In this document: piece by piece, positions 10,872 through 32,221 of the stretch
Position numbering within the stretch: the first letter of the stretch is position 1
How the letters are laid out: each line of letters starts with the position of its first letter
Assembly (NCBI GenBank): GCA_021390615.1
Contig: JAJEJU010000025.1
Span: forward strand, 310,001 to 374,000
DNA: 64,000 nucleotides
Direction of reading: 5' to 3'
Origin: Rhodanobacteraceae bacterium ZG21-1
GTDB taxonomy: Bacteria > Pseudomonadota > Gammaproteobacteria > Xanthomonadales > Rhodanobacteraceae
Made by a program: the position numbers and the translations under genes
Notes under the pieces: generated by a model
Databases searched by the model: none
Told to the model about the DNA's origin: nothing
Seen by the model: only the letters and a program-made list of their open reading frames with translations

Positions 10872-10925
10872 TCGTCTTGCCGATGTGATTCCTGGTAGAC
10901 GCCCCACTTTCTTTTTGTCAGGATC

Positions 10926-12959: not shown

Positions 12960-13140
12960 GCTTGCGGCTCGCTGTTTAATCTCGGTGATCCTGCCGGTCC
13001 AGCCTAGAAGGCTTATTCAATCGATAGTTCATGACTTCGATCCAGGGGATCGGGACCAGTTTCATAGGTCGGCTCGATCTTCCACCAGCGATGGATTGAT
13101 GACCTTGCAACCACCCAACTCTCGCAACGATTGCTCTGTC

Positions 13141-13166
13141 TGTTGATTTTCACCGAAAACTGAGCC
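13141..13166 (+). repeat. IS21 left terminal inverted repeat
   Basis: It begins TGTTGATTTT and ends AAAACTGAGCC; 22 of 26 bases match the right end. An inner copy of the same theme, CATCGAAAAGTGAGCCACC, lies at 13175-13193. Confidence 0.88.
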
Positions 13167-13203
13167 GGGTTTTTCATCGAAAAGTGAGCCACCGGCTGCG
13201 GGG

Positions 13204-13989: not shown

Positions 13990-15502
13990 GGCGTGACTTC
14001 CTGAGGTGGTCGTACCGCGCCACGTTGGCAACCGGCTCGGTCTGCAAGGCGAGGCCTGGCGGCGCGCTCACCGGTGCCGGGGGCGCCTCGCCCAGCAGGC
14101 GGCCCAGCAGGTTGAGGATGTGGGGCTTGGAAGGCGCCTTGGCCTCCAGCGCCAACTCCACCGCGGCCAGGACCGCCTGCTCGTCGTACTGCAGGACGAG
14201 AGAGAGGATCTCGACCATCTCTCGATCACCGCCTGGACGTGCCAACAGGGCCGTCTGCAGCTTTCGAAACCCCTCGGGTAGCTGGGTGAACGGCGCACCG
14301 TTGCGCAAGGCCCCAGGCTTACGCTGCACGACGCTGAGGTAATGCCGCCAGTCGTAGATGGTCCGGCCGCCGTCGTGGGCACGGATGATGAGTCGCGGGT
14401 GCTCGGCAATCCTCTGCCCCTCGGCGGCCATGACCACGCGATCGGCGTAGAGGCGTACGCTGATCGGTCGATTGGCGAAGCTGGCGGGCACGCTATAACG
14501 GTTGCGATCGACATGGACCAGGCAGGTGGGCGTGACACGCTTGGTCTGTTCGACAAAGCCATCGAACGGCGTGGGGACAGGCATCAGCTGAGGTTGTTCA
14601 TCCCGCCATACCTCAGCGAGGGTGCGATCTCGCCACTCCGGATGAAGCTGGGTCTCCCACAGCGCTATGCAACGTTCCTGCAGCCAGTCATTGAGCGCTT
14701 CGAGCGTCGGCATGGGCGGCGCCGCGGGCCATAGCCGGTGGCGCGCATCCTGCACGTTCTTCTCGATCTGCCCCTTCTCCCAGCCCGATGCCGGATTGCA
14801 GAACTCGGCCTCGAACAGGTAGTGGCTCACCATCGCCGCGAACCGCGGGTTGACGTCACGGACCTTGCCCCGGCGTACCTTGTCGACGGCCGTCTTCATG
14901 TTGTCGTAGATACCTCGACGCGGCACACCGCCGAAGACCGTGAAGGCGTGCAAGTGGGCGTCGAACAGCATCTCGTGCGTTTGTAGCAGATAGGCGCGTA
15001 GCAGGAACGCTCGGCTATGGCACAACTTGAACTGGGCGACCTGCAGCTTGACCCGTTCACCACCGATGCGCGCGCTGTCCTCGCTCCAGTCGAACTGGAA
15101 GGCTTCGCCGGGCGCGAAGGCCAGCGGCACAAAGGTGTCGCGGCCGGCGGTGCGGCTGCGCTCCTGCTCGGCTTGCCGCCAAGCTCGGGCAAAGGCCGCT
15201 ACGCGACCGTAGGAGCCGACATAGCCTTGGGCTGCCAGGGCCTGATACATCCACCGGATCGTGTGCCGCTGTTTACGGGGTACTTGTTGGTTGGCGCGCA
15301 GCCAGCGGGACAGATGGGCTGCATACGGGTCGAGCTGGCTGGAACGCTTGCGGATGGGATAACGCGGGGAGAGGTCCCCGCTCGCCAGATACTTGGTGAT
15401 GGTGTTGCGTGACAGCTTCGTGCGTCGTGCGATCTCCCGGATCGAGATCTTGTCACGCAGGTGCCAACGTCGGATGACGCTCAGTAGGGCCACGTCGATC
15501 AC
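13979..15502 (-). CDS. istA: IS21-family DDE transposase IstA
   Basis: A 507-residue transposase. The N-terminus (about 10-60) carries helix-turn-helix segments ([22 protein letters not shown]). The RNase-H-like catalytic core begins near [13 protein letters not shown], where the first catalytic Asp sits, continues through [17 protein letters not shown] with the second Asp, and has the Glu in the [17 protein letters not shown] block. The C-terminal beta-rich domain is present and ends [11 protein letters not shown]. It cuts and joins the element ends together with IstB. The length is normal. Confidence 0.96.
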
Positions 15503-16985
15503 TCCTTAGCTCCCGCTCGGATGGTGAGCGGAGGGTGGTAGGAGGTGGCTCAAATTTCGATGGAAACTCCCGTCCGAAGTGGCTCAGTTTTGGATGGAAC
15601 TCAACAAGCAGGGCCTTGGACGAAAAAGGCGTGTTGCCAAGCCCCGAAAGCACCGCGTTGCCCAGCGTCGATGTGAACAGGCGGCTTACAGCCTCGGTGG
15701 CTTGCACTTCCTGTCTCGTACGCTGATATTGCCATGACGCCACGAACAATCCGGCTATCGTGATCAGCACGATGACGGAAACCAGCGCCGCCGAAATCTT
15801 GTTCCGCAACAGGAATTTGCGCAGGCGATAAGTCCACGCGTTTGAACGCGATGCGATGGGCCTTCTATCGAGATAGCTTTTCAAATCGGCAGCAAGTGCG
15901 TCGGCGGATGCGTACCTCTGTTCCGGTTCTTCATGCAGCGACAGCGTCAGGATATGCTGCAGGTCACCGCTCAATGTTCGTTTCAGGGCGGCGAGGCTCG
16001 TCCGGCGCCTCGCGGCGATTTCCGCGGCGGCGTCGCAGGCGATCGCGGAAGCCATCGGCGGCACCGCAAAGTCGAACACTTCCCGCAATGCATCAGGCTT
16101 ATTCGGCGAGTGGACTTCGAACACCGGCCGGCCGCACAGCAATTCATACAGCAGCAGGCCGAGGGCATAGACGTCGGTGGCAACCGTGATGGCGCCTCCA
16201 CGTATCTGTTCGGGCGCAGCGTAGCGCTGCGCCATGGCCGGCTCCTGGTCGATGGACGCGTCGTTGACTCCGTCTGCACCGAGCAGCTTTGCGACGCCGA
16301 AATCGAGCAGCTTGGGCTCGCCATTGCTGTCGATCAGCACATTCGATGGCTTGATGTCGCAATGGACGACGAGGTGGTGGTGCGCAAATCCAACCGCTTC
16401 GCATATCGGCAGAAAGAGCCGAATGCGCGTGGCGACGTCGAGGTACTTCGCATCGCACCACGCCAGCATGGGATCGCCGTCGACGTATTCCATGGCGAAC
16501 CATGGTTCACCGTCGTCGACGAGGCCACCGTCCACGATGTGCGCAATGTGCGGGTGCTTCATCTCCGCGAGGATCCCGCGCTCGCGCAGGAAGCGGGCTT
16601 TCGCATTCGCTCTGAGCCTGCTTTTTCGAATCAGCTTCAAGGCGACAACCTGAGAAAACATGCCGTCATCGCGCTCGGCCCGATAGACCACGCCCATGCC
16701 GCCGTGCCCCAGGCGCTCGACCAGGCGATAGTTGCCGATGCGGCGCCCCGTCTCGTCCGTATCCTCGATCGATCCGGTAAACAAACCGATCTTTGCGGCG
16801 ACTTGCTGTACCGAGAAATCCAGAATGCCGCGATCTGTCGCGTCCGCGGCCAGCATAAAGCGCAATTTCGCCATGCTTGCCCGATCGTTGCCGCAGACGC
16901 GTGCAATGAACGTTTCCCGCTCTTCCTCGGGCAAGTCGAGCGCTTGTTCGAACAGACTGATGAGGGTGTGCTCATCCATCTTCAT
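15453..16985 (-). CDS. membrane Ser/Thr protein kinase, 3' end replaced by IS21
   Basis: The native frame runs from the ATG at 16985 to 15607, then reads into the IS and stops at 15453 (510 residues, the last about 50 being IS-derived). Kinase motifs from this start: glycine loop LGHGGMGVVY, Lys117 in VALK, HCDIKPSN with Asp210 (Cys instead of Arg before the Asp, so a non-RD kinase), DFG at 228-230 and YAAPEQ. One membrane helix follows (about 398-417), then the start of a periplasmic coil-like part. Relatives of this kind (PknB-like kinases paired with ECF43-type sigma factors) carry a long periplasmic sensor, often TPR-like, that is missing here. The catalytic part may still be made, uncoupled from its sensor. 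The natural partner is the sigma factor at 17805. Confidence 0.85.
   Translation of the reverse strand: MKMDEHTLISLFEQALDLPEEERETFIARVCGNDRASMAKLRFMLAADATDRGILDFSVQQVAAKIGLFTGSIEDTDETGRRIGNYRLVERLGHGGMGVVYRAERDDGMFSQVVALKLIRKSRLRANAKARFLRERGILAEMKHPHIAHIVDGGLVDDGEPWFAMEYVDGDPMLAWCDAKYLDVATRIRLFLPICEAVGFAHHHLVVHCDIKPSNVLIDSNGEPKLLDFGVAKLLGADGVNDASIDQEPAMAQRYAAPEQIRGGAITVATDVYALGLLLYELLCGRPVFEVHSPNKPDALREVFDFAVPPMASAIACDAAAEIAARRRTSLAALKRTLSGDLQHILTLSLHEEPEQRYASADALAADLKSYLDRRPIASRSNAWTYRLRKFLLRNKISAALVSVIVLITIAGLFVASWQYQRTRQEVQATEAVSRLFTSTLGNAVLSGLGNTPFSSKALLVEFHPKLSHFGREFPSKFEPPPTTLRSPSERELRSDRRGPTERHPTLAPA
15581..15606 (-). repeat. IS21 right terminal inverted repeat
   Basis: Read on the reverse strand it begins TGTTGAGTTC and ends AAAACTGAGCC, matching the left end at 22 of 26 positions. 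An inner copy is at 15544-15562. The base after it (15607) is kinase coding sequence. Confidence 0.88.
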
Positions 16986-17804
16986 GCCCCACGCGGGCGC
17001 CGGAATTCGTTGCCCGTCGGCAGCCAAGCTGCCAGCGGCAACGTGCCTATGCGGATGCGGAATTCAGCGGCCAACCCGAGCTTGATAACTCAAAGTTCGG
17101 CTGTTGTGGCGCATCCCCTGTTGCATTCGTTGCGCACGATCTGATGAATCCATGGGCGCAGCCTCAAGCAATCCTGGCCCGTGGCTTTCCCATGCTTTCA
17201 GGCCGACAGTGCCAGCTTGTCGAGTACGCTTGCCGGCATGACCGGCAAGCGATCATCGCAAGAAGCCCTGACAACCCAACCTTGATCGAAGCCTCAAACC
17301 GTGCCTGACCATAACTTATCGGGCGCTCCGTCGGTTTGCCGAAGGCCATGATTTGCCCTCACTCATCTCTCATATCGGCAAATCGGTACCTACCCCTTCA
17401 TCTGGCTAAAAACACATGGAAATGATGACGGCACAAGCCTTCATCTCTCACCGTCACGGGCCGCAGTGTGGCCGCCCGGGCTTCCTTCAGCATGCATTCG
17501 ATGGACTCGAAATGAAGCTTGATAGCCGACCACTGAAACTGTGATCCAGTTGGCGCGGAAGCTGCCTCATCGCTTCAACGCCGAATCGCCACAGCCAGCT
17601 TATACATTCGGGAATGTACATTGCAGCGCGGGTCCAGCCGCCCCCCATCTGGCTCGACCGCTGGTGGCTGCGCCTATGCGGTCAGTCTGAAATGCAGCGG
17701 ATCTCGTTGTCGCCGAATCAGCGGCATGATGACTGGCAATCGTCGGCGTACCGAAAATACGCGGGAGGGCCTCAGGGCCAAATCGATCGCCTCCCGCTTC
17801 CAGC
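16986..17804. other. 0.8-kb stretch between kinase and sigma factor genes
   Basis: No reading frame here has a family match, ribosome site or steady codon use. The length is unusual for a sigma/kinase pair that is normally close together, so a lost or decayed gene is possible. It must contain the kinase promoter. Confidence 0.5.
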
Positions 17805-19131: not shown

Positions 19132-19145
19132 TGACACCGGTGTCA
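19132..19145. promoter_or_regulatory. palindromic operator TGACACCGGTGTCA before the sugar operon
   Basis: A perfect 14-bp palindrome with a central CG, as preferred by LacI-family regulators. It overlaps TTGACA, a perfect -35-like hexamer (19131-19136), so a bound repressor would block polymerase. It lies about 90 bp before glk. The LacI gene at 30305 in the same locus is the likely binder. Palindromes of related form control N-acetylglucosamine regulons in Xanthomonas. Confidence 0.75.
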
Positions 19146-19235
19146 ATTACGTTTCACGCTGGTCACCGTTCCAATGCGAGGGGCGCGCCGAGCGTGGCAG
19201 TGGACCATTCGAAGCAAGCGAGGGGGGCCGTGGCC

Positions 19236-20249
19236 ATGCCGTTTCTGGCGGCCGACATCGGCGGCACGCATGCGCGTGTGGCGCTTATGCGCGCCTCACG
19301 CGATGGGAGCCAAGACGTCGAAACGCTCGCCTATCGCGTCTTCGCGTGCGCGAAGTTCACCAGCTTGCCGGCACTGTTGCGCGCCTTTGTCGATGCCGAC
19401 GCGCAAGCTCCGGTGAGGCACTGCGTGCTCGCCTGCGCCGGCCAGATCATGGGCAACGAGGTAGTGAACGACAACCTCGCCTGGCCGATCCACCTGGCGG
19501 AGCTGCGCTACGCGCTGGATCTGGACGAAGTTGCGGTGCTCAACGATTTCGAGGCGCTGGCCTACGCACTCGATGGTCCGCTGGCCCACGATGGGCGACG
19601 TCTCTGCGGACCGGACAAACGCTCCGATGGTCCGGCCCTGGTGATCGGCCCAGGCACCGGCCTCGGTGCGGCGGCGCATATCCCCGGCCCTGCCGGCGGC
19701 GTGGTGCTGGCGACCGAAGCCGGCCAGATGGACTACGCACCGAACTCGGTGCGCGAACGCGAAGTGCTCGCGCAGCTGATGCCGCAGGGCGGCTACGTGG
19801 CGTTCGAACACATCGTATCGGGCCCCGGCCTGCTCACCCTCTACGCGACCCTGTGCACCCTGCAAGAACAGACGCCGAGGCTGGCGACGCCTGAAGCCGT
19901 CACTGCGGCCGCACTGGCACACAGCGATGCACAGGCCGCGGAAGCTGTGGAGATATTTTGCGCTTCGCTGGGAAGCTTCGCCGGCAATCTGGCGATGGCC
20001 TTCATGGCCACAGGCGGCGTGTACCTGGCAGGTGGCTTCCTGTCATCGATCTTCGAGTTGCTCAAGCGCAGCGCCTTCGAAGAACGCTTCCTGCACGGAC
20101 GCAGTGCACGCGCCCTGCTGTCGGAAGTGCCGGTATGGGTCACCGAGCACGGCCGTCACGGCGTGCAGGGCGCAGCCCACTGGTACCTCAGACATGGCCG
20201 ATCGGGAACGAGCGCCTGGCGGCATGCCGCGAACGGCGTCAGCGCATGA
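19236..20249 (+). CDS. glk: glucokinase
   Basis: The ATG at 19236 is preceded by GAGGGGGG at good distance and gives 337 residues, the usual length for the Glk family (PF02685). It shows the phosphate-1 motif AADIGGTHARVAL near the N-terminus, VVNDNLAWPI, the NDFEALAYAL segment with the catalytic-base Asp, GPGTGLGAAAHIPG in the ATP-binding part, and ATGGVYLAGGF near the end. It phosphorylates glucose, and in a chito-sugar locus perhaps glucosamine, with ATP in the cytoplasm. It is the first gene of the sugar locus and its TGA overlaps the ATG of the next gene (ATGA), so translation is probably coupled. Confidence 0.95.
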   Translation: MPFLAADIGGTHARVALMRASRDGSQDVETLAYRVFACAKFTSLPALLRAFVDADAQAPVRHCVLACAGQIMGNEVVNDNLAWPIHLAELRYALDLDEVAVLNDFEALAYALDGPLAHDGRRLCGPDKRSDGPALVIGPGTGLGAAAHIPGPAGGVVLATEAGQMDYAPNSVREREVLAQLMPQGGYVAFEHIVSGPGLLTLYATLCTLQEQTPRLATPEAVTAAALAHSDAQAAEAVEIFCASLGSFAGNLAMAFMATGGVYLAGGFLSSIFELLKRSAFEERFLHGRSARALLSEVPVWVTEHGRHGVQGAAHWYLRHGRSGTSAWRHAANGVSA

Positions 20250-22579
20250 ACCGCCACAGGCCAGCGACCGTTCTTGGTTGCGCGATCATCGCGTGGCTGG
20301 CAGCAGCAGGTGTAGCCTTTGCAGCATCGGCCATGCCCTCATGGTCGCTGCTGCCGCAACCGGCCAAGCTCAGTCCAGCCCGATCGGGTGCGGTCGACGT
20401 CGCCAGCGGCGCCGTGATGTCGGTACGTGGCGCAGATCGCGAAGTGCATTCCATCGCAGAGCGGTTCGTGCGGCGCGTGGCGGACATCGACGGCTTGCAA
20501 CTGCACCTGGCCACGACGGACGTGGCGCACCCTGCGATCGCCTTCGAGGTGGATCCGCATGCCGATATCGCGGACGAGGCCGGCTATCGCATCACCGTCG
20601 GCAACGGCGGCATCCTGGTTTCTGCGCGCACGCCACGCGGCGTGTTTTACGGCAGCGTCACCCTGTGGCAATTGCTGACACCGCCCGGGTGGACGCGCGG
20701 CTCACCCGTCAAAGTGGCTGACGGCGTCATCGAAGATCATCCGCGTTTTGCCTGGCGGGCCGTATTGCTCGACTCGGGCCGGCACTACCAAAGCGTAGCC
20801 GACATCGAGAAGCTGATCGACTGGATGTCGCTCAACAAGCTGAACGTGCTGCTCTGGCATCTGACCGAAGACCAGGGCTGGCGCCTCGATATCACCAAGT
20901 ATCCCGAACTCACGCGGGTCGGTGCCTGCCGTAAGGCGGTCGGTCTCGACAGCGAGCTGAGCGGTTCCGCCGATCGACCCTACTGCGGTTTTTATACGCA
21001 GGCCGAGGCGCGTGCCATCGTGCGCTATGCCGCCGAGCGCTACGTGGACGTGGTGCCGGAAATCGACTTGCCAGGGCATTCGCAGGCAGCCATCGCCGCC
21101 TATCCGTGGCTGGGTGTCACCGGCAAGCGTCCCTCCGTGTGGACCGACTGGGGCGTGAGCCCATGGCTGCTCAAGCCCGACCAAAAAACCCTGCGCTTCG
21201 TCGACGACGTGCTCGACGAGGTGATGCAGCTGTTCCCTTCGCGCTATATCTCGATCGGTGGCGACGAGGCCGACAAGCAGCAATGGAATGCATCGCCGGA
21301 AGTACACGCGCAGATGCAGCGGCAGGGCCTGGCGAACATGGATCAGCTGCAGGGCTGGTTCATGCAGCAGGTGGCCGCGCATCTGGTCGAGCATGGGCGC
21401 ACGCCGGTGGGCTGGGACGACGAGCTGGTCGCCGGTGCCGCGCTGCCGGCATCGCAGGTAGTGATGTCGTGGCATGGCGACGACGGCGAACGCGTGGCGC
21501 TCGCTGCACTCCAGCAAGGCCACGACGTGGTGATGACGCCGCAGGAGTCGCTGTACTTCGACCACTACCAGTCCGAGCTGCCGGATGAGGGACCGGGGCC
21601 GGCCCCTGCGGCGAGCTTGCGGCAGGCCTATGACACTCGCCTGGTCCCGAACGGCGCAAGCGCGAGCGAAGCCGCACACATCATCGGTGTGCAGGCTGGC
21701 CTGTGGACCGAGCAGATGATCGACTTCGCGCACGACCAGCATGCGCTGTTCCCTCGCCTCGCGGCGCTGTCCGAGCTGGGCTGGTCGGCGCCAGGCGCAC
21801 ACGACTGGAACGACTTTCTGCAGCGCATGCCAGCCGAGCTGGCACGTTACCGCGCGCTAGGCATCGACTATGCCGACAGTGCGTTCGCGCCCTCCTTCCA
21901 AATCGCTGCTGTCGAAGATGGCGCGTTCCGGATCGAGCTGTCGAATCAAGCCGGCTACGGGGCGATGCGCTACACCACCGACGGCTCCGCTCCGACCGAG
22001 CGCTCCACGCCGTATGCGGGGCCGCTCACGCTGCCGGCCGACACCAGGCTGCGCGTCGCCACGTTCGCGCCTGACGGTTTCGAGCTGGCCGCACCACGCA
22101 CGCAGACGCTGGATGACACCGGCTTGCTGAGCCGCGATGGCAGCGCGCTGACTACCTGCTCCAGACAATCAGGCTCACGCCTGGACGGTGCAAAGCCGGC
22201 GCAGGGACCGCGACCGGTCTATGCCGTCGATATCGGCAACGCGTGCTGGCTATGGCCACAGCTGCCGTTGGACGGCATCAGACATGTCGCGATGACGGTC
22301 GAACGCATGACGTGGCGCTTCGGCGACGAGGCGAAGGATGCCGTAGCACGGAGCAAGGCCAGTGCGTTCGGCGAGTTCGAGATCCATGCCGATGCCTGCA
22401 ACGGGCCATTGCTGTCGCGCTCGTCGCTGCCGAGTGCGGCACAGGCTAAAGGGCAAGTCCGTCTCGAGGCCAAGCTGACCACGCCGGTGGGGGCCGGCGT
22501 CCACGATCTGTGCATCTTCGCCACCGGCGATCCACGCGATGGCCAGTGGGCGCTGGCGCACATGGCGCTTTCGAAATAG
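20246..22579 (+). CDS. beta-N-acetylhexosaminidase, GH20
   Basis: The ATG at 20246 overlaps the glk stop. The 777-residue product has signal peptide MNRHRPATVLGCAIIAWLAA... and is exported. A GH20b-like N-terminal domain (about 35-155) precedes the catalytic barrel, which starts near HPRFAWRAVLLDSGRHYQ. The catalytic pair is Asp340-Glu341 in YISIGGDEADKQQW; other family segments are VVPEIDLPGHSQAAIAAYP and VMSWHGDDGERVAL. The C-terminus has a chitobiase-type domain with YTTDGSAPTERSTPY and a last beta-rich part. It removes terminal N-acetylhexosamine, probably from chito-oligosaccharides, in the periplasm or outside. It acts with the GH2 enzyme of the locus, which should remove non-acetylated glucosamine. 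Confidence 0.95.
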   Translation: MNRHRPATVLGCAIIAWLAAAGVAFAASAMPSWSLLPQPAKLSPARSGAVDVASGAVMSVRGADREVHSIAERFVRRVADIDGLQLHLATTDVAHPAIAFEVDPHADIADEAGYRITVGNGGILVSARTPRGVFYGSVTLWQLLTPPGWTRGSPVKVADGVIEDHPRFAWRAVLLDSGRHYQSVADIEKLIDWMSLNKLNVLLWHLTEDQGWRLDITKYPELTRVGACRKAVGLDSELSGSADRPYCGFYTQAEARAIVRYAAERYVDVVPEIDLPGHSQAAIAAYPWLGVTGKRPSVWTDWGVSPWLLKPDQKTLRFVDDVLDEVMQLFPSRYISIGGDEADKQQWNASPEVHAQMQRQGLANMDQLQGWFMQQVAAHLVEHGRTPVGWDDELVAGAALPASQVVMSWHGDDGERVALAALQQGHDVVMTPQESLYFDHYQSELPDEGPGPAPAASLRQAYDTRLVPNGASASEAAHIIGVQAGLWTEQMIDFAHDQHALFPRLAALSELGWSAPGAHDWNDFLQRMPAELARYRALGIDYADSAFAPSFQIAAVEDGAFRIELSNQAGYGAMRYTTDGSAPTERSTPYAGPLTLPADTRLRVATFAPDGFELAAPRTQTLDDTGLLSRDGSALTTCSRQSGSRLDGAKPAQGPRPVYAVDIGNACWLWPQLPLDGIRHVAMTVERMTWRFGDEAKDAVARSKASAFGEFEIHADACNGPLLSRSSLPSAAQAKGQVRLEAKLTTPVGAGVHDLCIFATGDPRDGQWALAHMALSK

Positions 22580-22584
22580 CGGTA

Positions 22585-22604
22585 CGCGGGGCCAAAACCC
22601 CGCG
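22585..22604. other. short GC-rich hairpin after the hexosaminidase gene
   Basis: CGCGGGG, a six-base loop CCAAAA, then CCCCGCG. There is no T-run, so it is not a classic terminator. It may trim or stabilise mRNA between the GH20 and receptor genes. Confidence 0.45.
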
Positions 22605-22769
22605 CAGCAGGACCGAGCAAGTGGCTCCGGCGTCGAAGCCGAAGCCGGGGACATCGAGAAATGGCATCACGACGGCGCACAGGCCAGCAGGCAGCGCCGG
22701 GCTGCACACGTTTCGGAACACCACGGAGCACCTGAGGTTCGACAGGCAACACCAACGAGGTTAAAGCCC

Positions 22770-25700
22770 ATGTCCACCGTACTTCGCAAGCATCCATTGT
22801 CCTTTGCCGTCACCGCTTCGCTGTTCGCCGCCGTGTCGACGTCGGCTGCGGCGTCGCCTCTCGCCGATATCCAGGCGGACGGCACGGCAGCGCAGGCCAG
22901 CACGGCGCAAACCGCGCCGGCAACCGCATCGCCCAACGCCGCAAAAAGTGCAGCCGATAACGGCGAGACCAAGAAAACCGACGCCAAGGCCGACGGCAGC
23001 GACGCGAAGAAAAACGCGACGACGCTCTCGACGGTGAACGTCTCAGGCGTACGCGCATCGCAGATGCGCGCGATCGACCTGAAGCGCGACGCGGCGAATA
23101 TCCAGGACAGCATCACCGCAGAAAACATCGGCGCGCTGCCCGACACCACCATCACCGACTCACTGCAACGCGTCACCGGCGTGCAGATCAATCGCGACGC
23201 CGGCGTGGGCACCTCGGTGGACGTGCGCGGTCTGCCCCAGGTCGGCACCATGTTGAACGGCGAAGTGTTCATCACCGCGGACCAGATCGACTCGCAGCAG
23301 CCCGACTTCACCATGCTGCCGTCCACCTTGTTCCATGGCGTCGACGTGGTGAAGTCGTCCACCGCCAACGAAACCGACGGCGGCATCAGCGGCGCCATCA
23401 ATCTGCACACCTATCGCCCGTGGGACCTGCCCAGCGGCTTCACCTACAGCTACTCGGCCGACGGCGAGCGCGGCACCACCACCAACCACTGGGGACCCGA
23501 GGCCAACGGCCTCATCTCGTACAACGACCATGGCCGCTGGGGCCTGCTGATCGCGGCGGACTACTCCGACACCAAGCGGATGAACGCCAGCGAAGGCCTG
23601 GACCAATACGGCGTGGTGCTGAATGGCGAGAACGCCGCCAGCGCAGGCGGTTATAACGGTTTCTTGAGTCCATGGAACGGCGCGCCGATTCCGTCGAAGA
23701 TCGCCCAGAACGCCGACGGCAGCGTGGACGTCAACGGCGACGGCAAGTCCAACGGCGTGTTCATGGGCAGCCAGGACATCAGCCTCTACGACATCACCAC
23801 CCAGCGCAAGCGCAAGTCCGCCAATGCCTCGTTCCAGATGGACCTGGGCAATGGCTTCAGCCTGACCAGCGACTACTTCTATTCGCAACAGCACGAGTAC
23901 GACCGCAACGTCGGCATCCAGTTCAACTCCACCAACTGGCAGGGCGCTACTTATGTGCCGCTGCAGTCGCGCGATACCGGCAGCCCTGCCCTCGGCGCCT
24001 ACGGCACGCCGCAGCCGGGCTGGGAGGGTTCGCAGATCTACACCACCCAGGTGTACGAGAAGTGGCCGGGCGACGTGGAGTCGTTCTCGCAGATCACCCA
24101 GAAAAGCTCGGTCGCGAAAAATCTGAACCTGCAACTGGACTACGACGACGGCGGCCCGTTCACCGGCAGCCTGCGCGGCATCCATGACACCGCTTCGCAG
24201 ACAAACCAGGAAACCGACGTCAACGTTTCCGATTCCGACGGCGCGCTGTGGCCCAATGTGCTGATGCCCGGCGTCGATCCAAACTCGGTACCGCCCGGCA
24301 CCTTCGTCTATCCGGCGCAGCTGGGCGGCAACCGCGTGTTCAACCCCAACGGCATTCCGCAGAACACCGTGCCGATCATCGCGAACTTCGGCGGACGCTA
24401 CCTCACCGTCAGCATGCCCGCCTCGCTGGCCGCCAACTTCGCCAACCCGAACGACTGGACCATGAAGACGCTGGAATCCTCCGGCGACTACGATCGCAAG
24501 GTGGCGCTGAACGCCCTGCGCTTCGACGGACAATTCGACTTCCAGGACGGCTTCAAGCTCGAATTCGGCGGACGCAACAGCATCCGCGACGCCAACAACA
24601 ACGGCTGGACCCTGGAAACCCCGGTGTATGCCGGCATGGGCGCCAGCGACCCGAACGGCTGCCTGGTGCGCTACGTCGGCGCCGACGTGGTGATGAACAG
24701 CGGCTCGTGCACCGCCGGCAACGACCAGGGCTATTTCCGCTCGGGACCGCTGTCCGCGGTGTCGATGCCGAATGCCGCCGGACCGCTGTCGGGCAACTGG
24801 AAGCAGTACAACAATCTGCTGGGTTCGGGCATCAATTTCTGGGCGCTCGACCCGTCCGCGATGATCAACCCGATCTCGTTCTGGAAATCGCTCTACCCCG
24901 ACACCGTCCAGGTGGCCGAGCCGGGCACGACCTGGGGTGTGCAGCTGAAAGAGCTGACCGGCTATCTGCAGGGCGACTTCAACGGCACCCTCGGCGACAT
25001 GCCGTACAGCGGCAACGTCGGCGTGCGCGTGATCCGCACCCATCTGAACGTGACCCAGCACCTGAGCGGTGCCCCAGGCGCGTACGGCGACGAACCGGCC
25101 GATGCCGGCACCTCGGTCACCAAACGCAGTTACCAGGACGTGCTGCCGTCGGCCAACTTCTCGCTGGACCTGACCGACAGCCTGAAGCTGCGGCTGGCCT
25201 ATTCCAAGAACATGATGCCGCTCGACCTCAGCACCTGGGGCGGCGGCCTGCAGCTGAACTACTCGCTGGAAGAGACGCCGCAGGGGCCGATCTTCCGCGT
25301 GTCGGACGGCACCTCGACCGGCAACCCGAACCTCAATCCGTGGCGCTCCACCAACTATGGCGCGTCGCTGGAGTACTACATCAACCCCACCAGCATGCTC
25401 AGCCTTGCGCTGTTCCGCATCAACGTGGACAGCTTCATCAAGAACGGCAGCGTGACCAACTGCACCCTGCCCGACGAAGACGGCGTGGTGCGCGACCATT
25501 GCATCGTGATCACCCAGCCCGTGCAGGGCACCGGCAACAGCATCCAGGGTGCGGAGTTCGACTACCGCCAGGGCTTCACCTTCCTGCCGGGCCTGCTGTC
25601 CAAGACGGGCGTGGAAGTGAACGCCACTTACGCGCCGAGCAACTCGGGCGAGAAGGATCTGGCCGGCCACAAGATTCCGTTCCAGGACAACTCCACCAAG

Positions 25701-26006
25701 TCCGGCAACTTCATCCTGTGGTATCAGGACGACCACTTCCAGGCTCGCGTCGCCTACAACTACCGCTCGCGCCGCGCGGTGATGGACAGCGTCGGCGGCA
25801 TCACCGGCATGGAGATGTACGAGGCGCCGCAGAAGTACGTCGATGCGTCGATCTCGTACAAGTTCAACAAATACGCCGAAGTGTTCCTGGACGGCACCAA
25901 CCTCACCAACGAATATCAGCACTACTATCTGGTGTGGCCCGACCAGCCCGCGCACTCGACCTTCTCCGAACGCATGTTCATGGTCGGCATCCGCGGCCAG
26001 TGGTAA
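22770..26006 (+). CDS. TonB-dependent outer-membrane receptor (Xanthomonas/Caulobacter sugar type)
   Basis: The ATG at 22770 (MSTVLRKHPLSFAVTASLFA) gives 1078 residues with a signal peptide, then a low-complexity Ala/Thr/Lys-rich segment (about 40-85) before the TonB box region (LSTVNVSGVR). The plug has LPDTTITDSLQRVTGVQINR and GGISGAINL; the 22-strand barrel ends in a terminal aromatic residue (MFMVGIRGQW), as required for BAM assembly. There is no N-terminal STN signalling domain. It should import oligosaccharides across the outer membrane with TonB energy. Its neighbours (GH20, GH2, glk, LacI) point to chitosan or chito-oligosaccharides as substrate, an inference from context. Confidence 0.95.
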   Translation: MSTVLRKHPLSFAVTASLFAAVSTSAAASPLADIQADGTAAQASTAQTAPATASPNAAKSAADNGETKKTDAKADGSDAKKNATTLSTVNVSGVRASQMRAIDLKRDAANIQDSITAENIGALPDTTITDSLQRVTGVQINRDAGVGTSVDVRGLPQVGTMLNGEVFITADQIDSQQPDFTMLPSTLFHGVDVVKSSTANETDGGISGAINLHTYRPWDLPSGFTYSYSADGERGTTTNHWGPEANGLISYNDHGRWGLLIAADYSDTKRMNASEGLDQYGVVLNGENAASAGGYNGFLSPWNGAPIPSKIAQNADGSVDVNGDGKSNGVFMGSQDISLYDITTQRKRKSANASFQMDLGNGFSLTSDYFYSQQHEYDRNVGIQFNSTNWQGATYVPLQSRDTGSPALGAYGTPQPGWEGSQIYTTQVYEKWPGDVESFSQITQKSSVAKNLNLQLDYDDGGPFTGSLRGIHDTASQTNQETDVNVSDSDGALWPNVLMPGVDPNSVPPGTFVYPAQLGGNRVFNPNGIPQNTVPIIANFGGRYLTVSMPASLAANFANPNDWTMKTLESSGDYDRKVALNALRFDGQFDFQDGFKLEFGGRNSIRDANNNGWTLETPVYAGMGASDPNGCLVRYVGADVVMNSGSCTAGNDQGYFRSGPLSAVSMPNAAGPLSGNWKQYNNLLGSGINFWALDPSAMINPISFWKSLYPDTVQVAEPGTTWGVQLKELTGYLQGDFNGTLGDMPYSGNVGVRVIRTHLNVTQHLSGAPGAYGDEPADAGTSVTKRSYQDVLPSANFSLDLTDSLKLRLAYSKNMMPLDLSTWGGGLQLNYSLEETPQGPIFRVSDGTSTGNPNLNPWRSTNYGASLEYYINPTSMLSLALFRINVDSFIKNGSVTNCTLPDEDGVVRDHCIVITQPVQGTGNSIQGAEFDYRQGFTFLPGLLSKTGVEVNATYAPSNSGEKDLAGHKIPFQDNSTKSGNFILWYQDDHFQARVAYNYRSRRAVMDSVGGITGMEMYEAPQKYVDASISYKFNKYAEVFLDGTNLTNEYQHYYLVWPDQPAHSTFSERMFMVGIRGQW

Positions 26007-26166
26007 GCGGAACGCCCTGCCCCGCCGATGCGGGCCTGACGATGACCTCATGCCTGCATGCAAGGGCATGGGATCGCCGAGACAGGGCTTGAGTCTGCAG
26101 CAGCAAGATCGTCCATCGGAGCGGTTCCATCACGCCCCGCTCGCCATCCATCAGCACAAGGCCAGC

Positions 26167-27555
26167 ATGCAGGATTCCAGCACGCCACCGCCCGCTCGCG
26201 ACCACGCCTTCCATCGCTCCATCGGCCTGTTCTCGGGCACCGCGATCAACATGACCCAGATGTGCGGCATCGGGCCGTTCATCACCATTCCCATCATGGT
26301 CGCCGCCATGGGTGGGCCGCAGGCGGTGATCGGCTGGATCGCCGGCGCCATCCTGGCCATGGCCGACGGCCTGGTCTGGGCCGAGCTCGGCGCGGCCATG
26401 CCGGGTTCCGGCGGCACCTATGTCTACCTGCGCGAAGCCTTCCAGTACCGCAGTGGCAAGCTGATGCCCTTCCTGTTTATCTGGACCATGCTGCTGGCGA
26501 TTCCCCTGCTGATGTCCACCGGCATCATCGGCATGGTGGAATACCTGGAATTCTTCTTTCCCGGCCTGGGCTGGTGGCCGGTGCACCTGATCGGCCTGGC
26601 CTCGACTGCGATCGTCACCTGGCTGCTGTATCGCCGCATCGAATCGGTACGCACCATCACCATCGCGCTGTGGGTCATCATGCTGGTCTCCGTGGTCGGC
26701 GTGGCGGCCGCCGGCTTCTCGCACTTCAATCCGCGCTTCGCCTTCAGCTATCCCGCCGACACCTTCGGCAGCCACTTCTTCGTCGGGCTGGGTGCGGGCC
26801 TGATCATCGGCATCTACGATTATCTCGGCTACAACACCACCGCCTACATCGGCGACGAGCTGCGCCAGCCGGGACGCACCATGCCCGGCTCGATCATCGC
26901 CTCGGTAATCGCGATGATGGTCGTCTACCTGCTGCTCAACATCAGCGTGCTTGGCGTGGCGCCATGGCAGGACATCGCCCACTCCAAGTCGGTGGCCTCG
27001 CTGGTGGTGGAGCGCAGCTGGGGGCATACGGCGGCAGCTGTGATGACCGTGCTCATCATCGTGACCGCGTTCGCCTCGGTGTTCACCGGCCTGCTGGGCG
27101 GCTCGCGCGTGCCCTTCCAGGCCTCGCGGGACAAGGTGTTCCTGTCCATGTTCGGGCATCTGCACGCCAAGCACGGCTTTCCGCACGTAGCCCTGCTCAC
27201 GATGGGTGCGGTGACGGCAGTCGGCACGTTCTTCGACCTCACCGAGGTCATCAACATGCTGCTGGCCGCGACCATCATCGTGCAGTCCATCGCGCAGATC
27301 GCCGCCCTGGTGGTGCTGCGCAAGCGCCAGCCCGGCCTGCCGCGCCCGTACCGGCAATGGCTCTATCCCGTGCCTTGCATCATCGCGCTGGTGGGCTGGG
27401 TCTATGTATACGTGTCCGCCTCCACGCTGTCGCTGATCCTGTCCGGCCTGTGGATCGTCGCCGGCTTGGTGGTGTTCGCGATCTGGGCCAGGCTCAACCG
27501 GTCCTGGCCGTTCGCGCCCGCGGAAATACGCGAAGCCTATCTCGGGAAATCTTGA
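26167..27555 (+). CDS. APC-superfamily permease
   Basis: The ATG at 26167 (MQDSSTPPPARDHAFHRSIG) gives 462 residues with about 12 membrane helices, the standard size. The APC signature region is present at the start: GLFSGTAINMTQMCGIGPF, then AELGAAMPGSGGTYVYL; YLGYNTTAYIGDEL lies in the middle. Most family members move amino acids or amines. Here the gene sits four bases before the GH2 exo-glucosaminidase gene, inside a sugar locus with no other inner-membrane transporter. It is therefore a good candidate for glucosamine uptake, the amino sugar resembling the amine substrates of the family. That is inference only. Confidence 0.92.
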   Translation: MQDSSTPPPARDHAFHRSIGLFSGTAINMTQMCGIGPFITIPIMVAAMGGPQAVIGWIAGAILAMADGLVWAELGAAMPGSGGTYVYLREAFQYRSGKLMPFLFIWTMLLAIPLLMSTGIIGMVEYLEFFFPGLGWWPVHLIGLASTAIVTWLLYRRIESVRTITIALWVIMLVSVVGVAAAGFSHFNPRFAFSYPADTFGSHFFVGLGAGLIIGIYDYLGYNTTAYIGDELRQPGRTMPGSIIASVIAMMVVYLLLNISVLGVAPWQDIAHSKSVASLVVERSWGHTAAAVMTVLIIVTAFASVFTGLLGGSRVPFQASRDKVFLSMFGHLHAKHGFPHVALLTMGAVTAVGTFFDLTEVINMLLAATIIVQSIAQIAALVVLRKRQPGLPRPYRQWLYPVPCIIALVGWVYVYVSASTLSLILSGLWIVAGLVVFAIWARLNRSWPFAPAEIREAYLGKS

Positions 27556-27558
27556 CTC

Positions 27559-30288
27559 ATGCCCACTTCGACCAGGCACGTACTTTGGGCGATCGCCGCG
27601 ATGGCGGCCTCGGCCTCGGCCTCGACCTCGGCCGCGGCAGCCGCACCGGCATCGAGCAGCGATGCGCCCACGGCGGTAAGCGCCGATGCCGGCACCAGCA
27701 CCGCCGTCGACCACTGGCGAATCCAGGACAGCGCGAAGGCACAACAGGACGGTGCCGAGATCTCTGCGACCGGCTACTCCACCGAAGGCTGGTACCCAGT
27801 GAGCGGTCGCGCCACCGTGATGGCCGGCCTGCTCGAAAACAAGGTGTTCAAGAACGACGTGTTCTACAGCGACAACCTGCGCGCGGTGCAGGTGCCCGAC
27901 TCCAGCGGCAACCTGTTCGTGACGCCCTGGTGGTATCGCAGCGAATTCATCCTGCCGAAGGCGCCGGCAGGACGGCATACGCTGCTGCGCACCCACGGCA
28001 TGATCGCCAGCGCCGACCTGTGGGTGAACGGCCACCTGATCGCCGATCAGGGCGAACTCGCCGGCGCCTATCCCGTGCACGAGTTCGACGTGACGCGTTG
28101 GGTACATGCCGACGGCAACGTGCTGGCGCTACGCGTGCATCCGGCCGATCCACGCAGCAGCTTGTCGATCGGCTGGGTGGACTGGAACCCCACGCCGCCG
28201 GACAACAACATAGGGCCGTGGCGCGGCGTGGACATCGTGCAGACCGGTCCGGTCGAGCTGAGCTTTCCGCAGGTGTTGTCGACGCTGTCGCTGCCCGACC
28301 TCGCACACGCCACGCTGGAAGTGAAAGTCACCGCGAAGAATCTCGATACGGTGGCGCACGACGCGACGATCAGCGGTAGCGCCGCCGGCGTCGCCATGCA
28401 GCAGACCGTGCACCTCGCGCCAGGACAGACGCAGCTCGTCGCCTTCTCGCCGCGGACGACGCCGGGCCTCGCGCTGGATCACCCGAAGATCTGGTGGCCG
28501 GTCGGCATGGGCGAGCATCCGCTGTACCAGCTCGAGATGAGCGCCACGGTCGACGGCACAACTTCCGATCGGGCCGCGACGACGTTCGGCATCCGCAGCG
28601 TCAGCTCCAGTCTTACCGCGCAGGGCTACCGCCAGTTCTTCATCAACGGCAAGCCGCTGCTGATCCGCGGCGCGGGCTGGGCTCCCGACCTGTTCCTGCG
28701 CGACGATCCTGCCCGCATGGACGCCGAGTTCGACTACGTGCTCAACCTCGGCCTCAACACCATTCGCAGCGAAGGCAAGCTGGAAAGCCCGCGTTTCTAC
28801 GATCTGGCCGACCGCCACGGCATCCTGATCCTGGCCGGCTGGGAGTGCTGCGACAAATGGGAATCGGCCGCCAAGACCGGCGGCTCGCCCTGGAGCGCCG
28901 CCGATCAGAAAGTGGCGGAAGATTCCATGACCAGCGAAGCGCGCCTGCTGCGTAACCATCCCTCAGTGATCGGCTTCCTGATCGGCAGCGACAATGCACC
29001 GCCGCCGCCCATCGCGAAAATGTACGTGGATGCGCTGCACGCAGCGGACTGGTCGCTGCCCATCGTCTCGGCGGCGGCCGAGCAGCCGACCGCCGAGACC
29101 GGTCCTTCCGGCATGAAGATGGCCGGGCCGTACGACTGGATCCCGCCGGCCTACTGGTACGCCGACAAGCTGGGCGGCGCGTTCGGCTTCGACTCCGAGG
29201 TCAGCGCGGGTGCCGACATCCCACGGCTGGAAGACCTCAAGCGCATGCTGTCGCCGCAGGAGCAGGAAGCATTATGGAAATATCCGGAGGCCAGGCAGTA
29301 CCACGCCTCCGCAGACTGGTCGACCTTCGCCGTACTGACCCCGTTCGACAAGGCGCTGGCCGCCCGCTACGGCGCGCCCACAAGCCTTGCCGATTACGCC
29401 GCCAAGGCCCAGCTCGACAACTACGACAACGTGCGCGCGCAGTTCGAAGCCTTCAACGCGCGCATGGATGCGGCCAAGCCGGCCACCGGCGTGATCTACT
29501 GGATGCTCAACAACGCCTGGCCTTCCTTGCACTGGCATCTGTACGACTACTACATGAATCCCGCCGGCGCCTATTTCGGCGCCAAGAAGGCCAACGAGCC
29601 GGTGCATATCCAATACTCGTACGACTCGCGCGGCATCGTGCTGGTGAACCACACGCTCGACGAGCTTCATGGCCTGCAGGCAAGCATCCGCGTGCGCAAT
29701 CTGGACGGCAAAGTGCGCTACGAGCAGCAGCTGAAAAGCATCGACCTCGCGGGCAACCACACGCGGCCGCTGGCGATCGTGCCGGCCATCAAGGATCTGT
29801 CTGCAGCCTACTTTATCGAGCTCGAGCTGGCCGCTGCCGATGGCACGTCGCTCAGCCGCAATGTCTACTGGCTTTCCACTCGGGCGGACGTGCTCGACTG
29901 GGCGCAGTCGACCTGGTACCTCACCCCGCTCACCCAGTACGCCGACCTGACCGCACTGCGATCCTTGCCGGCCGCGACCAGCGAGGTCCGCGCGAGCACA
30001 CGGCACGAAGGCAAGGAGGACGTCACCACGGTCACGCTGTCGGTGCCCGCATCGTCCAAGGCGGTGGCGCTGTTCCAGCACGTCTCGATCCGCCGCGGCG
30101 CGCATGGCGAGCTTGCGCTGCCGATACGCTGGAATGACAATGACATCACGCTATGGCCTGGCGAGTCGGCAACCCTGACGGCGCGATACGCGGCGCAGGA
30201 AAACACGGCGCCGCAGGTCGAAGTGAGCGGATGGAACGCTCCCAACCGAAGCGTTCCGGCAGCTGCCACGCAAGGGACAGATCATTGA
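27559..30288 (+). CDS. exo-beta-D-glucosaminidase of the CsxA type, GH2
   Basis: A 909-residue protein with signal peptide (MPTSTRHVLWAIAAMAASAS). Domains follow the GH2 order: sugar-binding jelly roll (about 50-220), immunoglobulin-like (to about 350), TIM barrel, then C-terminal beta-domains. The acid/base motif is IGSDNAPPPP, with Ser-Asp (Asp478) in place of the Asn-Glu of most GH2 enzymes; the nucleophile is Glu547 in FGFDSEVSAGADIP. This Ser-Asp variant marks exo-beta-D-glucosaminidases such as Amycolatopsis CsxA, and the match continues in GVIYWMLNNAWPSLHWHLYD and AYFGAKKANEPVHIQYS. It should cut glucosamine from the non-reducing end of chitosan oligomers (EC 3.2.1.165). Beta-mannosidase is the alternative often assigned automatically; the motif argues against it. 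Confidence 0.9.
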   Translation: MPTSTRHVLWAIAAMAASASASTSAAAAAPASSSDAPTAVSADAGTSTAVDHWRIQDSAKAQQDGAEISATGYSTEGWYPVSGRATVMAGLLENKVFKNDVFYSDNLRAVQVPDSSGNLFVTPWWYRSEFILPKAPAGRHTLLRTHGMIASADLWVNGHLIADQGELAGAYPVHEFDVTRWVHADGNVLALRVHPADPRSSLSIGWVDWNPTPPDNNIGPWRGVDIVQTGPVELSFPQVLSTLSLPDLAHATLEVKVTAKNLDTVAHDATISGSAAGVAMQQTVHLAPGQTQLVAFSPRTTPGLALDHPKIWWPVGMGEHPLYQLEMSATVDGTTSDRAATTFGIRSVSSSLTAQGYRQFFINGKPLLIRGAGWAPDLFLRDDPARMDAEFDYVLNLGLNTIRSEGKLESPRFYDLADRHGILILAGWECCDKWESAAKTGGSPWSAADQKVAEDSMTSEARLLRNHPSVIGFLIGSDNAPPPPIAKMYVDALHAADWSLPIVSAAAEQPTAETGPSGMKMAGPYDWIPPAYWYADKLGGAFGFDSEVSAGADIPRLEDLKRMLSPQEQEALWKYPEARQYHASADWSTFAVLTPFDKALAARYGAPTSLADYAAKAQLDNYDNVRAQFEAFNARMDAAKPATGVIYWMLNNAWPSLHWHLYDYYMNPAGAYFGAKKANEPVHIQYSYDSRGIVLVNHTLDELHGLQASIRVRNLDGKVRYEQQLKSIDLAGNHTRPLAIVPAIKDLSAAYFIELELAAADGTSLSRNVYWLSTRADVLDWAQSTWYLTPLTQYADLTALRSLPAATSEVRASTRHEGKEDVTTVTLSVPASSKAVALFQHVSIRRGAHGELALPIRWNDNDITLWPGESATLTARYAAQENTAPQVEVSGWNAPNRSVPAAATQGTDH

Positions 30289-30304
30289 TGACGCCTAGGC
30301 TTGC

Positions 30305-31312
30305 ATGTCGCGCGTAACGATCAACGATGTCGCCCGTGCATCGGACACCTCGAAGAAAACCGTCTCGCGCGTGCTCAACAACGAGCCGAACGTGCGCGAT
30401 TCGGTGCGCGAGCGCGTGCTCGCCGCCGTGGCGGAACTCCATTACCGGCCGCTGACCTCGGCACGCAGCCTGGCGACCAACCGCTCCTTCATGATCGGCC
30501 TGCTCTACGACAACTTGTCGCCGAGCTACATCATGGAAGTGCAGGCCGGCGTGCTGGAGGCCTGCGAAGCGCAGCAGTACAGCATGATGGTGCAGCCGCT
30601 GGTCTCGACGGCGCCGGACTTCGTCGAGCGGGTCGAGAGCATCCTGTTGCGGCACCGGCCGGACGGGCTGATCCTCACCCCACCCATCACCGACCACACC
30701 AAGCTGCTCGATCACCTGCGCAAGAGCGAGCTTCCGTTTGCCTCGATCGCCCCACGCCAACCCAAGGGCTGCATCGGCGTGATGCTGCGCGAACGCGAAG
30801 CCGCTGCCGCGATGGTGGAACACCTGGTTTCGCTGGGCCACCGGCGCATCGCACATATTCTCGGCGACCCCAAGCACGGCGCCGGCATCTGGCGCCTGGC
30901 CGGCTATCGCGATGGTCTGAAGCGTGCGGGCCTGAAGGAAAATCCGGCGTACATGGTGCAGGGCCGCTTTTCCTTCGAATCCGGCGTGGCCGCCGCGCGC
31001 CGGCTGCTCGCCTTGAAGCAGCGGCCTACCGCAATTTTCGCGGCCGACGACGACATGGCCGTCGGCGCGATCTGGGCCGCCGCCGAAGCCGGGGTGTCGG
31101 TGCCCGGCGACATCTCCATTTGCGGCTTCGACGACACCACCATCGCGACCCAGGTATGGCCGCTGCTGACCACCGTGCATCAACCCGTGCGCGACATGGG
31201 CAAGCGCGCCACCGAGGAGCTGCTGCTTCGCGTGCTGGGCAAGGGCGAAGCGCGCATGGTCGAAGTCGCCTACGAAATGCGCATGCGCGCGTCGACCGCG
31301 GCAGCCCCCTAG
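30305..31312 (+). CDS. LacI-family transcriptional regulator
   Basis: A 335-residue regulator, normal for the family. The N-terminal helix-turn-helix (VTINDVARASDTSKKTVSRV, then LNNEPNVRDSVRERV) is followed by the hinge helix PLTSARSLATNR and a periplasmic-binding-protein-like ligand domain (GLLYDNLSPSYIMEVQAG to GDISICGFDDTTIATQVWP). It starts 16 bases after the GH2 gene and probably represses the locus by binding TGACACCGGTGTCA at 19132, released by a chito-sugar or its phosphate. Both operator and ligand are inferred. Confidence 0.94.
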   Translation: MSRVTINDVARASDTSKKTVSRVLNNEPNVRDSVRERVLAAVAELHYRPLTSARSLATNRSFMIGLLYDNLSPSYIMEVQAGVLEACEAQQYSMMVQPLVSTAPDFVERVESILLRHRPDGLILTPPITDHTKLLDHLRKSELPFASIAPRQPKGCIGVMLREREAAAAMVEHLVSLGHRRIAHILGDPKHGAGIWRLAGYRDGLKRAGLKENPAYMVQGRFSFESGVAAARRLLALKQRPTAIFAADDDMAVGAIWAAAEAGVSVPGDISICGFDDTTIATQVWPLLTTVHQPVRDMGKRATEELLLRVLGKGEARMVEVAYEMRMRASTAAAP

Positions 31313-31375
31313 CGCAGGCGCCGTCCTGCACCCATGCTCCTGCCAGCCAGGCCATCGCTCGAGAGGAACGTTTCC

Positions 31376-32221
31376 ATGCCTGCCACGTCCGACGCCAGCC
31401 AGCCGCCACGGAAGTTCCATTTCATTTCCGGGCTGCCGCGCGCAGGCACTACCCTGCTGGCCGCCATCCTCAACCAGAATCCGCGCTTCCGCGCCGGCAT
31501 GACCAGCCCGCTGGCCGACATCATGGGCGTGGTGATCGCGGAGGCGAGCAGCAAGAACGATTTCTCCTTCGACGTCTCCGACCAGCAGCGTGTTGCGCTG
31601 CTGCGCGGCCTGGTCGAGAACTTCTACTCAGTGCAGAACGACGCCAGCGTGGTGTTCGACACCAGCCGGCTGTGGTGCAGCCGCATGCAGCTGCTCGATA
31701 CGCTCTTTCCTGGAGTGAAGGTAATCGCCTGCGTGCGCCAGCTGGCCTGGGTGCTGGACAGCATGGAGCGCCTGGTACGCAAGCAGCCGGTCAGCGTCAG
31801 CAAGGTGTTCCGCTTCGACACCAACACCACGGTCTACTCGCGCGTCGAGGCGCTGACCGATCCGCGCGGCATGGTGGGCTTCGCCTACCAGGCCACCAAG
31901 GAAGCGTTCTACGGCGAGCATGCACGCGAGCACCTGCTGATGCTGACCTATGAAAGCCTGGCGCGCGATCCGGCCACGGCGATGCGCGCGGTCTACCAGT
32001 TCCTCGGCGAACCCTGGTTCGAGCACGACTTCGACCATATCGCATATCAGGCGGACGAGTTCGACGCCCGCGTCGGCATGCCCGGCCTGCACGCCGTACG
32101 CACGAAGGTGGAGTCGATCGAACGCCAGCCGATCCTGCCGCGCGAAATCTTCGGTCGCTTCGTCAACGAGGCGTTCTGGATGGATCCGAAGAACAATATT
32201 CATCAAGTGCGCATCGTGTAG
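31376..32221 (+). CDS. sulfotransferase family protein
   Basis: The ATG at 31376 is preceded by GAGAGGAACG and gives 281 residues. The PAPS phosphate loop is FISGLPRAGTTLLAAILNQN; a second conserved stretch, CVRQLAWVLDSMERLV, corresponds to the 3'-phosphate-binding region, and LMLTYESLARDPATAM is the typical acidic/helix block. It should move sulfate from PAPS to a hydroxyl or amine, in the cytoplasm. It follows the LacI gene by about 60 bases on the same strand, so it belongs to the locus. Sulfotransferases near TonB receptors recur in Xanthomonadales, but the acceptor is unknown. Confidence 0.9.
   Translation: MPATSDASQPPRKFHFISGLPRAGTTLLAAILNQNPRFRAGMTSPLADIMGVVIAEASSKNDFSFDVSDQQRVALLRGLVENFYSVQNDASVVFDTSRLWCSRMQLLDTLFPGVKVIACVRQLAWVLDSMERLVRKQPVSVSKVFRFDTNTTVYSRVEALTDPRGMVGFAYQATKEAFYGEHAREHLLMLTYESLARDPATAMRAVYQFLGEPWFEHDFDHIAYQADEFDARVGMPGLHAVRTKVESIERQPILPREIFGRFVNEAFWMDPKNNIHQVRIV

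Follow-up and report, generated by a model that had tools for sequence, protein, structure and literature searches.

In the genome of Rhodanobacteraceae bacterium ZG21-1, we analyzed a window of 64,000 nucleotides. Seven genes with uninterrupted reading frames lie on the same strand at 19236-32221. In order, they encode a Glk-family kinase, a GH20 protein, a TonB-dependent receptor (TBDR), an APC-family permease, a GH2 protein, a LacI-family protein, and a sulfotransferase (Table 1). Matches to Pfam and NCBIfam models bear out the families that the original prediction, made from the sequence of this DNA, had given for all seven. It also described very small gaps or overlaps. This holds for four of the six junctions (an overlap of 4 bp between the kinase and GH20 genes, and gaps of 3 bp between the APC and GH2 genes, 16 bp between the GH2 and LacI genes, and 63 bp between the last two genes) but not for the GH20/TBDR and TBDR/APC junctions, which are 190 and 160 bp. 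The genes on both sides are on the opposite strand (a sigma-factor-like ORF upstream, and a FecA-type receptor and FecR downstream), so the operon is well bounded. A scan for sigma-70 promoters and terminators gave nothing above chance. The N-termini of the GH20 protein (judged by eye) and the GH2 protein resemble signal peptides. Among the operon's ORFs and their Pfam matches, there is no SusD-like lipoprotein beside the receptor.

Table 1. Features of the operon, with positions in the window.
Feature	Position	Strand	Evidence
Presumed operator, perfect 16-bp palindrome TTGACACCGGTGTCAA	19131..19146	.	Match with 0 mismatches; TTGACA -35-like hexamer within the palindrome
Glk-family sugar kinase, predicted GlcN/GlcNAc/glucose kinase	19236..20249	+	Glucokinase PF02685 7.9e-90; NF009073 above cutoff
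Putative GH20 beta-N-acetylhexosaminidase, optional member	20246..22579	+	Glyco_hydro_20 PF00728 2.5e-106; PDB hexosaminidase 6q63, E 9.9e-110
TonB-dependent receptor (TBDR), TonB-Xanth-Caul type	22770..26006	+	Pfam plug and barrel; NCBIfam TIGR01782 2e-154, above cutoff
APC-family inner-membrane permease, predicted glucosamine importer	26167..27555	+	AA_permease_2 PF13520 2.1e-45; linkage to GlcNase genes in Actinomycetota
Putative GH2 exo-beta-D-glucosaminidase, CsxA type	27559..30288	+	Ig_GlcNase PF18368 9.9e-27 and GH2 domains; PDB 2vzs, E 2e-241
LacI-family repressor, predicted to bind the operator above	30305..31312	+	LacI PF00356 2e-15; Peripla_BP_3 PF13377
PAPS-type sulfotransferase, no apparent signal peptide	31376..32221	+	Sulfotransfer_3 PF13469 2e-17; tyrosylprotein sulfotransferases (TPST) are the nearest solved folds

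The GH2 protein aligns end to end (residues 10-903) with CsxA, the exo-glucosaminidase of Amycolatopsis; the next PDB family is beta-mannosidase (5.5e-21). D469 and E541 of CsxA align with D478 (acid/base) and E547 (nucleophile). Both of these residues, as well as the serine preceding the aspartate (the GSD motif), are invariant in the 79 aligned GH2 sequences, so the Ser-Asp signature and CsxA type of the original prediction were assigned correctly. CsxA is a chitosan enzyme (PMC6097792). Given this strong homology, we infer that the GH2 protein releases glucosamine (GlcN). It is the sole PF18368 protein in the genome.

Orthologs of the GH2 protein are found in 74 of 234 genomes from the family Rhodanobacteraceae, in 13 of the 26 genera. 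We compared gene content and order in 80 relatives with flanking DNA. All seven genes were present, in order, in 31 of these loci, all from other genomes, and 18 more lacked only the GH20 gene. These 49 loci are from Dyella, Rhodanobacter, Luteibacter, Frateuria, Fulvimonas, Oleiagrimonas, Pinirhizobacter, Pseudoxanthomonas, and metagenome-assembled genomes (MAGs). Another 10 loci, which are of a Steroidobacteraceae type or from other MAGs, contain the TBDR, GH2, and sulfotransferase genes (and GH20 in 3 cases). As they lack the kinase, the permease, and LacI, the permease is not indispensable. The rest contain only the APC and GH2 genes (9 loci) or only the GH2 gene (6), or are partial (6), mostly due to contig ends or because the ORF caller did not extend. 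Several loci without LacI have a ROK-family regulator divergent from the receptor (L083, L087, L090, L092, L103, and L113). In the receptor, Y574 (SGDYDRK) is an acid-flanked tyrosine that is invariant in 60 sequences; it is one among many conserved residues.

The shared gene order is far beyond chance. The operon is real and widely conserved, and its parts are of known kinds. The 18 otherwise complete loci without GH20 rule out this enzyme as an essential partner. Since GH20 is optional, partly acetylated chains would not be the core substrate; the glucosamine end would. The original prediction is supported in its substrate class, as glucosamine-containing oligosaccharides fit the operon.

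A perfect palindrome lies upstream of the kinase gene, and we presume from the sequence that it is the LacI operator. Allowing up to two mismatches, all 50 of the loci that contain the kinase gene have it, and the remaining 30 all lack it. (Two contig fragments with LacI, L088 and L091, stop short of the promoter and count among those 30.) In the 8 loci that were measured, it ends 81-92 bp before the start of the kinase gene. A palindrome that is kept at the promoter just where the LacI operon is present fits an autoregulated LacI operon. We infer that the LacI protein acts as a repressor, and the same applies to its effector.

Nowhere else in the 5.5-Mb genome does the 14-bp core of the palindrome occur with 0 or 1 mismatch, and given this single site we rejected a larger LacI regulon. 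There are two related boxes with the sequence TGACAACGTTGTCA, one at a nag-type locus (contig C14) and one preceding the gene for a TonB receptor (contig C18). This NagR-type operator is not found at the operon, which has its own, TGACACCGGTGTCA. It therefore appears that this operator is private to LacI and that the regulon is a single operon. The region described in the original prediction began at 19132, within the palindrome, which was not mentioned there.

Loci for the utilization of GlcNAc with NagR, NagK, and a TonB receptor occur in Xanthomonadales and Alteromonadales. The operon has a LacI repressor, a Glk-family kinase, a TonB receptor, and GH20 in common with these. It differs in having an APC permease instead of an MFS-like permease, an additional GH2 glucosaminidase and a sulfotransferase, and its own operator. 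The nag-type locus of ZG21-1 itself has a related operator (see above), and its LacI is 39% identical to that of the operon. The operon's kinase is 48-49% identical to the kinases of this locus (49%) and of another locus on contig C17. Neither a nagA deacetylase nor a nagB/SIS deaminase is among the seven genes of the operon, as judged by Pfam. The nag-type locus contains a nagA-like gene and a SIS-like gene, which we recognized by eye from the sequence.

The operon also resembles CsxA and the ROK-regulated csnR-csnEFGHK genes of Amycolatopsis and Streptomyces, with the same type of GH2, a dedicated repressor acting on a palindrome, and a sugar kinase. In those actinobacteria, however, oligomers are taken up by the ABC transporter CsnEFG and the repressor is the ROK protein CsnR, instead of a TonB receptor, an APC permease, and LacI. 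The actinobacterial chitosan genes are controlled separately from the genes for chitin and GlcNAc (PMC6097792), as in the operon.

The permease links the operon to Actinomycetota more directly. The APC proteins of Rhodanobacteraceae and Actinomycetota are 55-59% identical (55-56% in the alignment and 57-59% in whole-genome matches), while the next-best APC proteins are 24-30% identical (24-28% for those from the same actinobacterial genomes). Similarly, members of this family are 55-59% identical to each other and under 40% identical to the other APC proteins that we found. Orthologs were present in 11 of the 13 actinobacterial genomes with csxA-type genes, and we found none at E ≤ 1e-90 in a class-wide sample of 368 further genomes. 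At seven Streptomyces loci, the APC gene is on the reverse strand about 2 kb from csxA. In six of these, a ROK regulator lies between the two; the ORF caller did not resolve one at the seventh locus (L127). These seven loci may represent one evolutionary event. The APC gene is away from csxA in three Streptomyces genomes. Amycolatopsis rifamycinica encodes the APC protein, a second PF18368 GH2 (38% identical), and a ROK kinase, in that order and on one strand. Two proteobacterial MAGs retain just the APC and GH2 genes. A more distant APC relative (39% identical) is found in a locus with LacI, a TonB receptor, the APC gene, GH4, and a PIG-L-type deacetylase.

Because the regulators and kinases around the same pair of permease and glucosaminidase differ, glucosamine (or a short glucosamine oligomer) is our best guess for the substrate of the permease. 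Judging from this linkage, glucosamine is the most likely substrate, and a short oligomer such as the dimer, or another amine, is possible.

Alternatively, the permease might import an amino acid or amine, as a nitrogen supply or an exchange partner, with glucosamine entering by another carrier, for instance the MFS-like one encoded at the nag-type locus. The best solved relatives of the permease carry amino acids, and the characterized APC relatives all carry amino acids, amines, or fructoselysine. The NCBIfam models for FrlA and for APC proteins in general match the permease, well below their curated cutoffs. Also, other amino-sugar loci in this bacterial family use MFS transporters (as in L161). 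But the operon's permease belongs to a separate narrow family within the superfamily that includes FrlA, AdiC, and GkApcT, and in a second phylum this same narrow family again adjoins glucosaminidase genes, where the regulator and kinase are different. Among the genes that are conserved in the 49 loci, APC is the only one for an inner-membrane carrier. Furthermore, glucosamine is a cationic amine, and the fructoselysine carried by FrlA is a sugar-amine conjugate. We consider this alternative unlikely. The operator and the cross-phylum link between APC and glucosaminidase genes are our two strongest findings, and both were missed by the original prediction.

The sulfotransferase is 73-92% identical across the operons. 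In loci of the Steroidobacteraceae type, it is still 75-84% identical, while the GH2 protein and the receptor drop to 58-74%. Where contigs extend far enough, the gene is found in every locus with the receptor, including all 10 of the TBDR and GH2 loci without the kinase, the permease, or LacI, and it is never present in the nine APC-GH2 loci without a receptor. It thus follows the TonB receptor and not the sugar enzymes, which makes a role as a sugar enzyme unlikely.

Paralogs of the sulfotransferase (40-62% identical) are found elsewhere in the order, and we inspected 40 of their loci in two sets of 20. Because the first set was picked by hand from the list of matches and the second was picked for more divergent matches, the following fractions are not estimates from a random sample: in the first set, an autotransporter N-terminus of the ESPR type is encoded no more than about 3.3 kb away in 15 loci, and a 16th has a repetitive ORF of 2540 amino acids; in the second set, about 12 of 20 encode ESPR proteins (2), DUF4347-type giants (5), or matrixin-type proteins (5). 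(Two of the DUF4347-type proteins were identified by Pfam, one of them with an autotransporter barrel, and the others by sequence likeness; three of the matrixin-type proteins were identified by Pfam.) The ESPR motif does not occur in 1.34 Mb of DNA from the GH2 loci. One paralog (L161) is in a locus with a receptor, GH5/42, ROK, SIS, and MFS proteins.

The nearest solved folds point in the same direction. In a profile search of the sulfotransferase against PDB, tyrosylprotein sulfotransferases came first (TPST1, 1.5e-8), and the top 13 hits from Foldseek were all TPST, ahead of heparan sulfotransferases, with a query model whose pLDDT was only 59. The residues of the G-x-P-R-x-G-x-T loop and R121...S129 (the 5' and 3' PAPS-binding motifs) are invariant. 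TPST is the closest fold and has the PAPS loop in common with the operon's enzyme, but identity is only about 22%. The position aligned to the catalytic glutamate of TPST (E99/E100) is Met or Thr; an invariant glutamate, E56, is nearby in sequence. As the paralogs are often beside giant exported proteins and the nearest folds are TPSTs, we propose that the sulfotransferase probably modifies exported or surface proteins, and not a sugar.

The one bacterial protein-tyrosine sulfation pair that we know of is RaxST and RaxX. In Xanthomonas, RaxST sulfates RaxX, a protein that is exported after its synthesis in the cytoplasm (PMC6637879). The two systems would be alike in pairing an apparently cytoplasmic enzyme with exported proteins. 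By this analogy, the most economical reading is that the target is an exported protein that is first made in the cytoplasm, and the receptor of the operon would be the obvious candidate.

The sulfotransferase could instead sulfate glucosamine or an oligosaccharide to give a signal or storage form, much as NodH and NoeE sulfate Nod factors. It does sit in an amino-sugar operon, and it has a faint match to NoeE (E = 2.9e-4), which covers 27 residues at the PAPS loop only. Its distribution with the receptor, its paralogs adjoining giant exported proteins, and the ranking of TPSTs before heparan sulfotransferases make a sugar target improbable, and we demoted this candidate on the basis of the co-occurrence table and the paralog contexts.

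In the literature that we searched (mostly open-access), we found no prior description of chitosan TonB loci, of an APC-family glucosamine permease, of CsxA with a permease, or of a sulfotransferase with an autotransporter. Similarly, the link between APC and csxA in Streptomyces is absent from PMC6097792 and from that literature. As far as these searches reach, neither the combination of genes nor the private operator has been described, and the same holds for the permease and for the pairing of the sulfotransferase.

As for the overall substrate, we searched for the chitosanase families GH46 and GH75. No GH46 match was found in ZG21-1, so we rejected an endo-chitosanase of this family elsewhere in the genome. 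GH46 matches were found in only 8 of the 234 genomes of Rhodanobacteraceae. The search for GH75 gave no match anywhere, including the controls, and so carries no information. ZG21-1 has two GH18 genes. With no GH46 match and two GH18 genes, the organism seems rather to scavenge oligomers that others have freed, and the breakdown of chitosan polymer by ZG21-1 is unsupported. Polymer degradation is a poorer fit than the scavenging of glucosamine oligomers; some lineages would have gained GH20 to remove GlcNAc caps.

The operon might instead serve another glycan with glucosamine. The main rival is partly deacetylated poly-beta-1,6-GlcNAc (a biofilm polymer); a glucosamine-containing exopolysaccharide and fragments of lipid A are others. 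The linkage would differ and the enzymes would act in the same way. GH20 enzymes and exo-glucosaminidases act at the ends of chains and do not have to be strict about linkage, and the scarcity of GH46 means that chitosan polymer is not obviously attacked. However, the GH2 protein is CsxA-like along its whole length, soil hosts encounter fungal chitosan, and a scavenger of oligomers can do without an endo-enzyme, so we rate these other glycans as quite unlikely.

We think it likely that this LacI-controlled operon scavenges oligosaccharides with glucosamine ends, and that these are most likely chitosan oligomers. The gene content and order, the catalytic residues, the conserved operator, and the gene linkage were observed, and the functions below are predicted from sequence. 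Without an inducer, LacI would sit on the palindrome over the -35 region of the promoter. Oligomers would enter the periplasm via the TonB receptor, as expected from its family. There, GH2 is predicted to free glucosamine from the non-reducing end, given its homology to CsxA, and GH20, where present, would strip GlcNAc caps, given its homology to hexosaminidases. With each enzyme acting on its own type of end, mixed oligomers would be cut alternately. As its gene linkage suggests, the APC permease would carry glucosamine across the inner membrane, where the Glk-family kinase would phosphorylate it; deamination would be left to the separate nag-type locus on contig C14. In what is the weakest step, the cytoplasmic sulfotransferase may modify an exported protein, most simply the TonB receptor, before export.

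More broadly, we tentatively suggest that the permease is the founder of a family of glucosamine permeases common to Pseudomonadota and Actinomycetota, and that the sulfotransferase is one of a bacterial family of cytoplasmic enzymes that sulfate exported proteins of the outer membrane and surface (TonB receptors, giant autotransporters, and matrixin-like proteins) before secretion. If the APC link holds, a family that is annotated as "amino acid permease" would gain a sugar substrate, and the scavenging of glucosamine from chitosan would become predictable from genomes in two phyla. The pairing of the sulfotransferase with exported proteins gives a concrete, testable list of candidate sulfated bacterial surface proteins.

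The core of the operon has an actinobacterial counterpart in Amycolatopsis rifamycinica. L189 is one more locus with an APC carrier, and it is amino-sugar-like.

An additional amino-sugar locus (L018) is present in the genome that encodes the operon, and its gene set looks like a system for using fucosylated glycans. In the same genome, the TonB receptor of L019 probably belongs, as a distant member, to the NagR regulon. Within the window, the ORF for a Ser/Thr protein kinase seems to be interrupted by an IS21-like insertion.

Positions and gene content of these loci and of the insertion
Locus	Position	Features
L185 (A. rifamycinica)	8902-14023	Consecutive APC permease, PF18368 GH2, ROK sugar kinase
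L189	5124-15213	LacI, TonB receptor, APC (39% identical to the operon's), GH4, PIG-L deacetylase, Gfo/Idh oxidoreductase
L018 (contig C17)	44-64 kb	Glk-family kinase, GH29 fucosidase, GH18, TonB receptor, MFS-like transporter, GH20, GH3
L019 (contig C18)	9706-12581	TonB receptor with second NagR-type box TGACAACGTTGTCA upstream
Window	13979-17027	IS21-like transposase ORF abutting end of Ser/Thr protein kinase ORF, same strand

In related genomes, giant exported proteins repeatedly adjoin paralogues of the operon's sulfotransferase (L162-L179 and L202-L221); these neighbors are ESPR autotransporters, DUF4347 proteins, and matrixin-domain proteins. Together, the sulfotransferase relatives and their giant exported neighbors may constitute a system by which bacteria sulfate their surface proteins.
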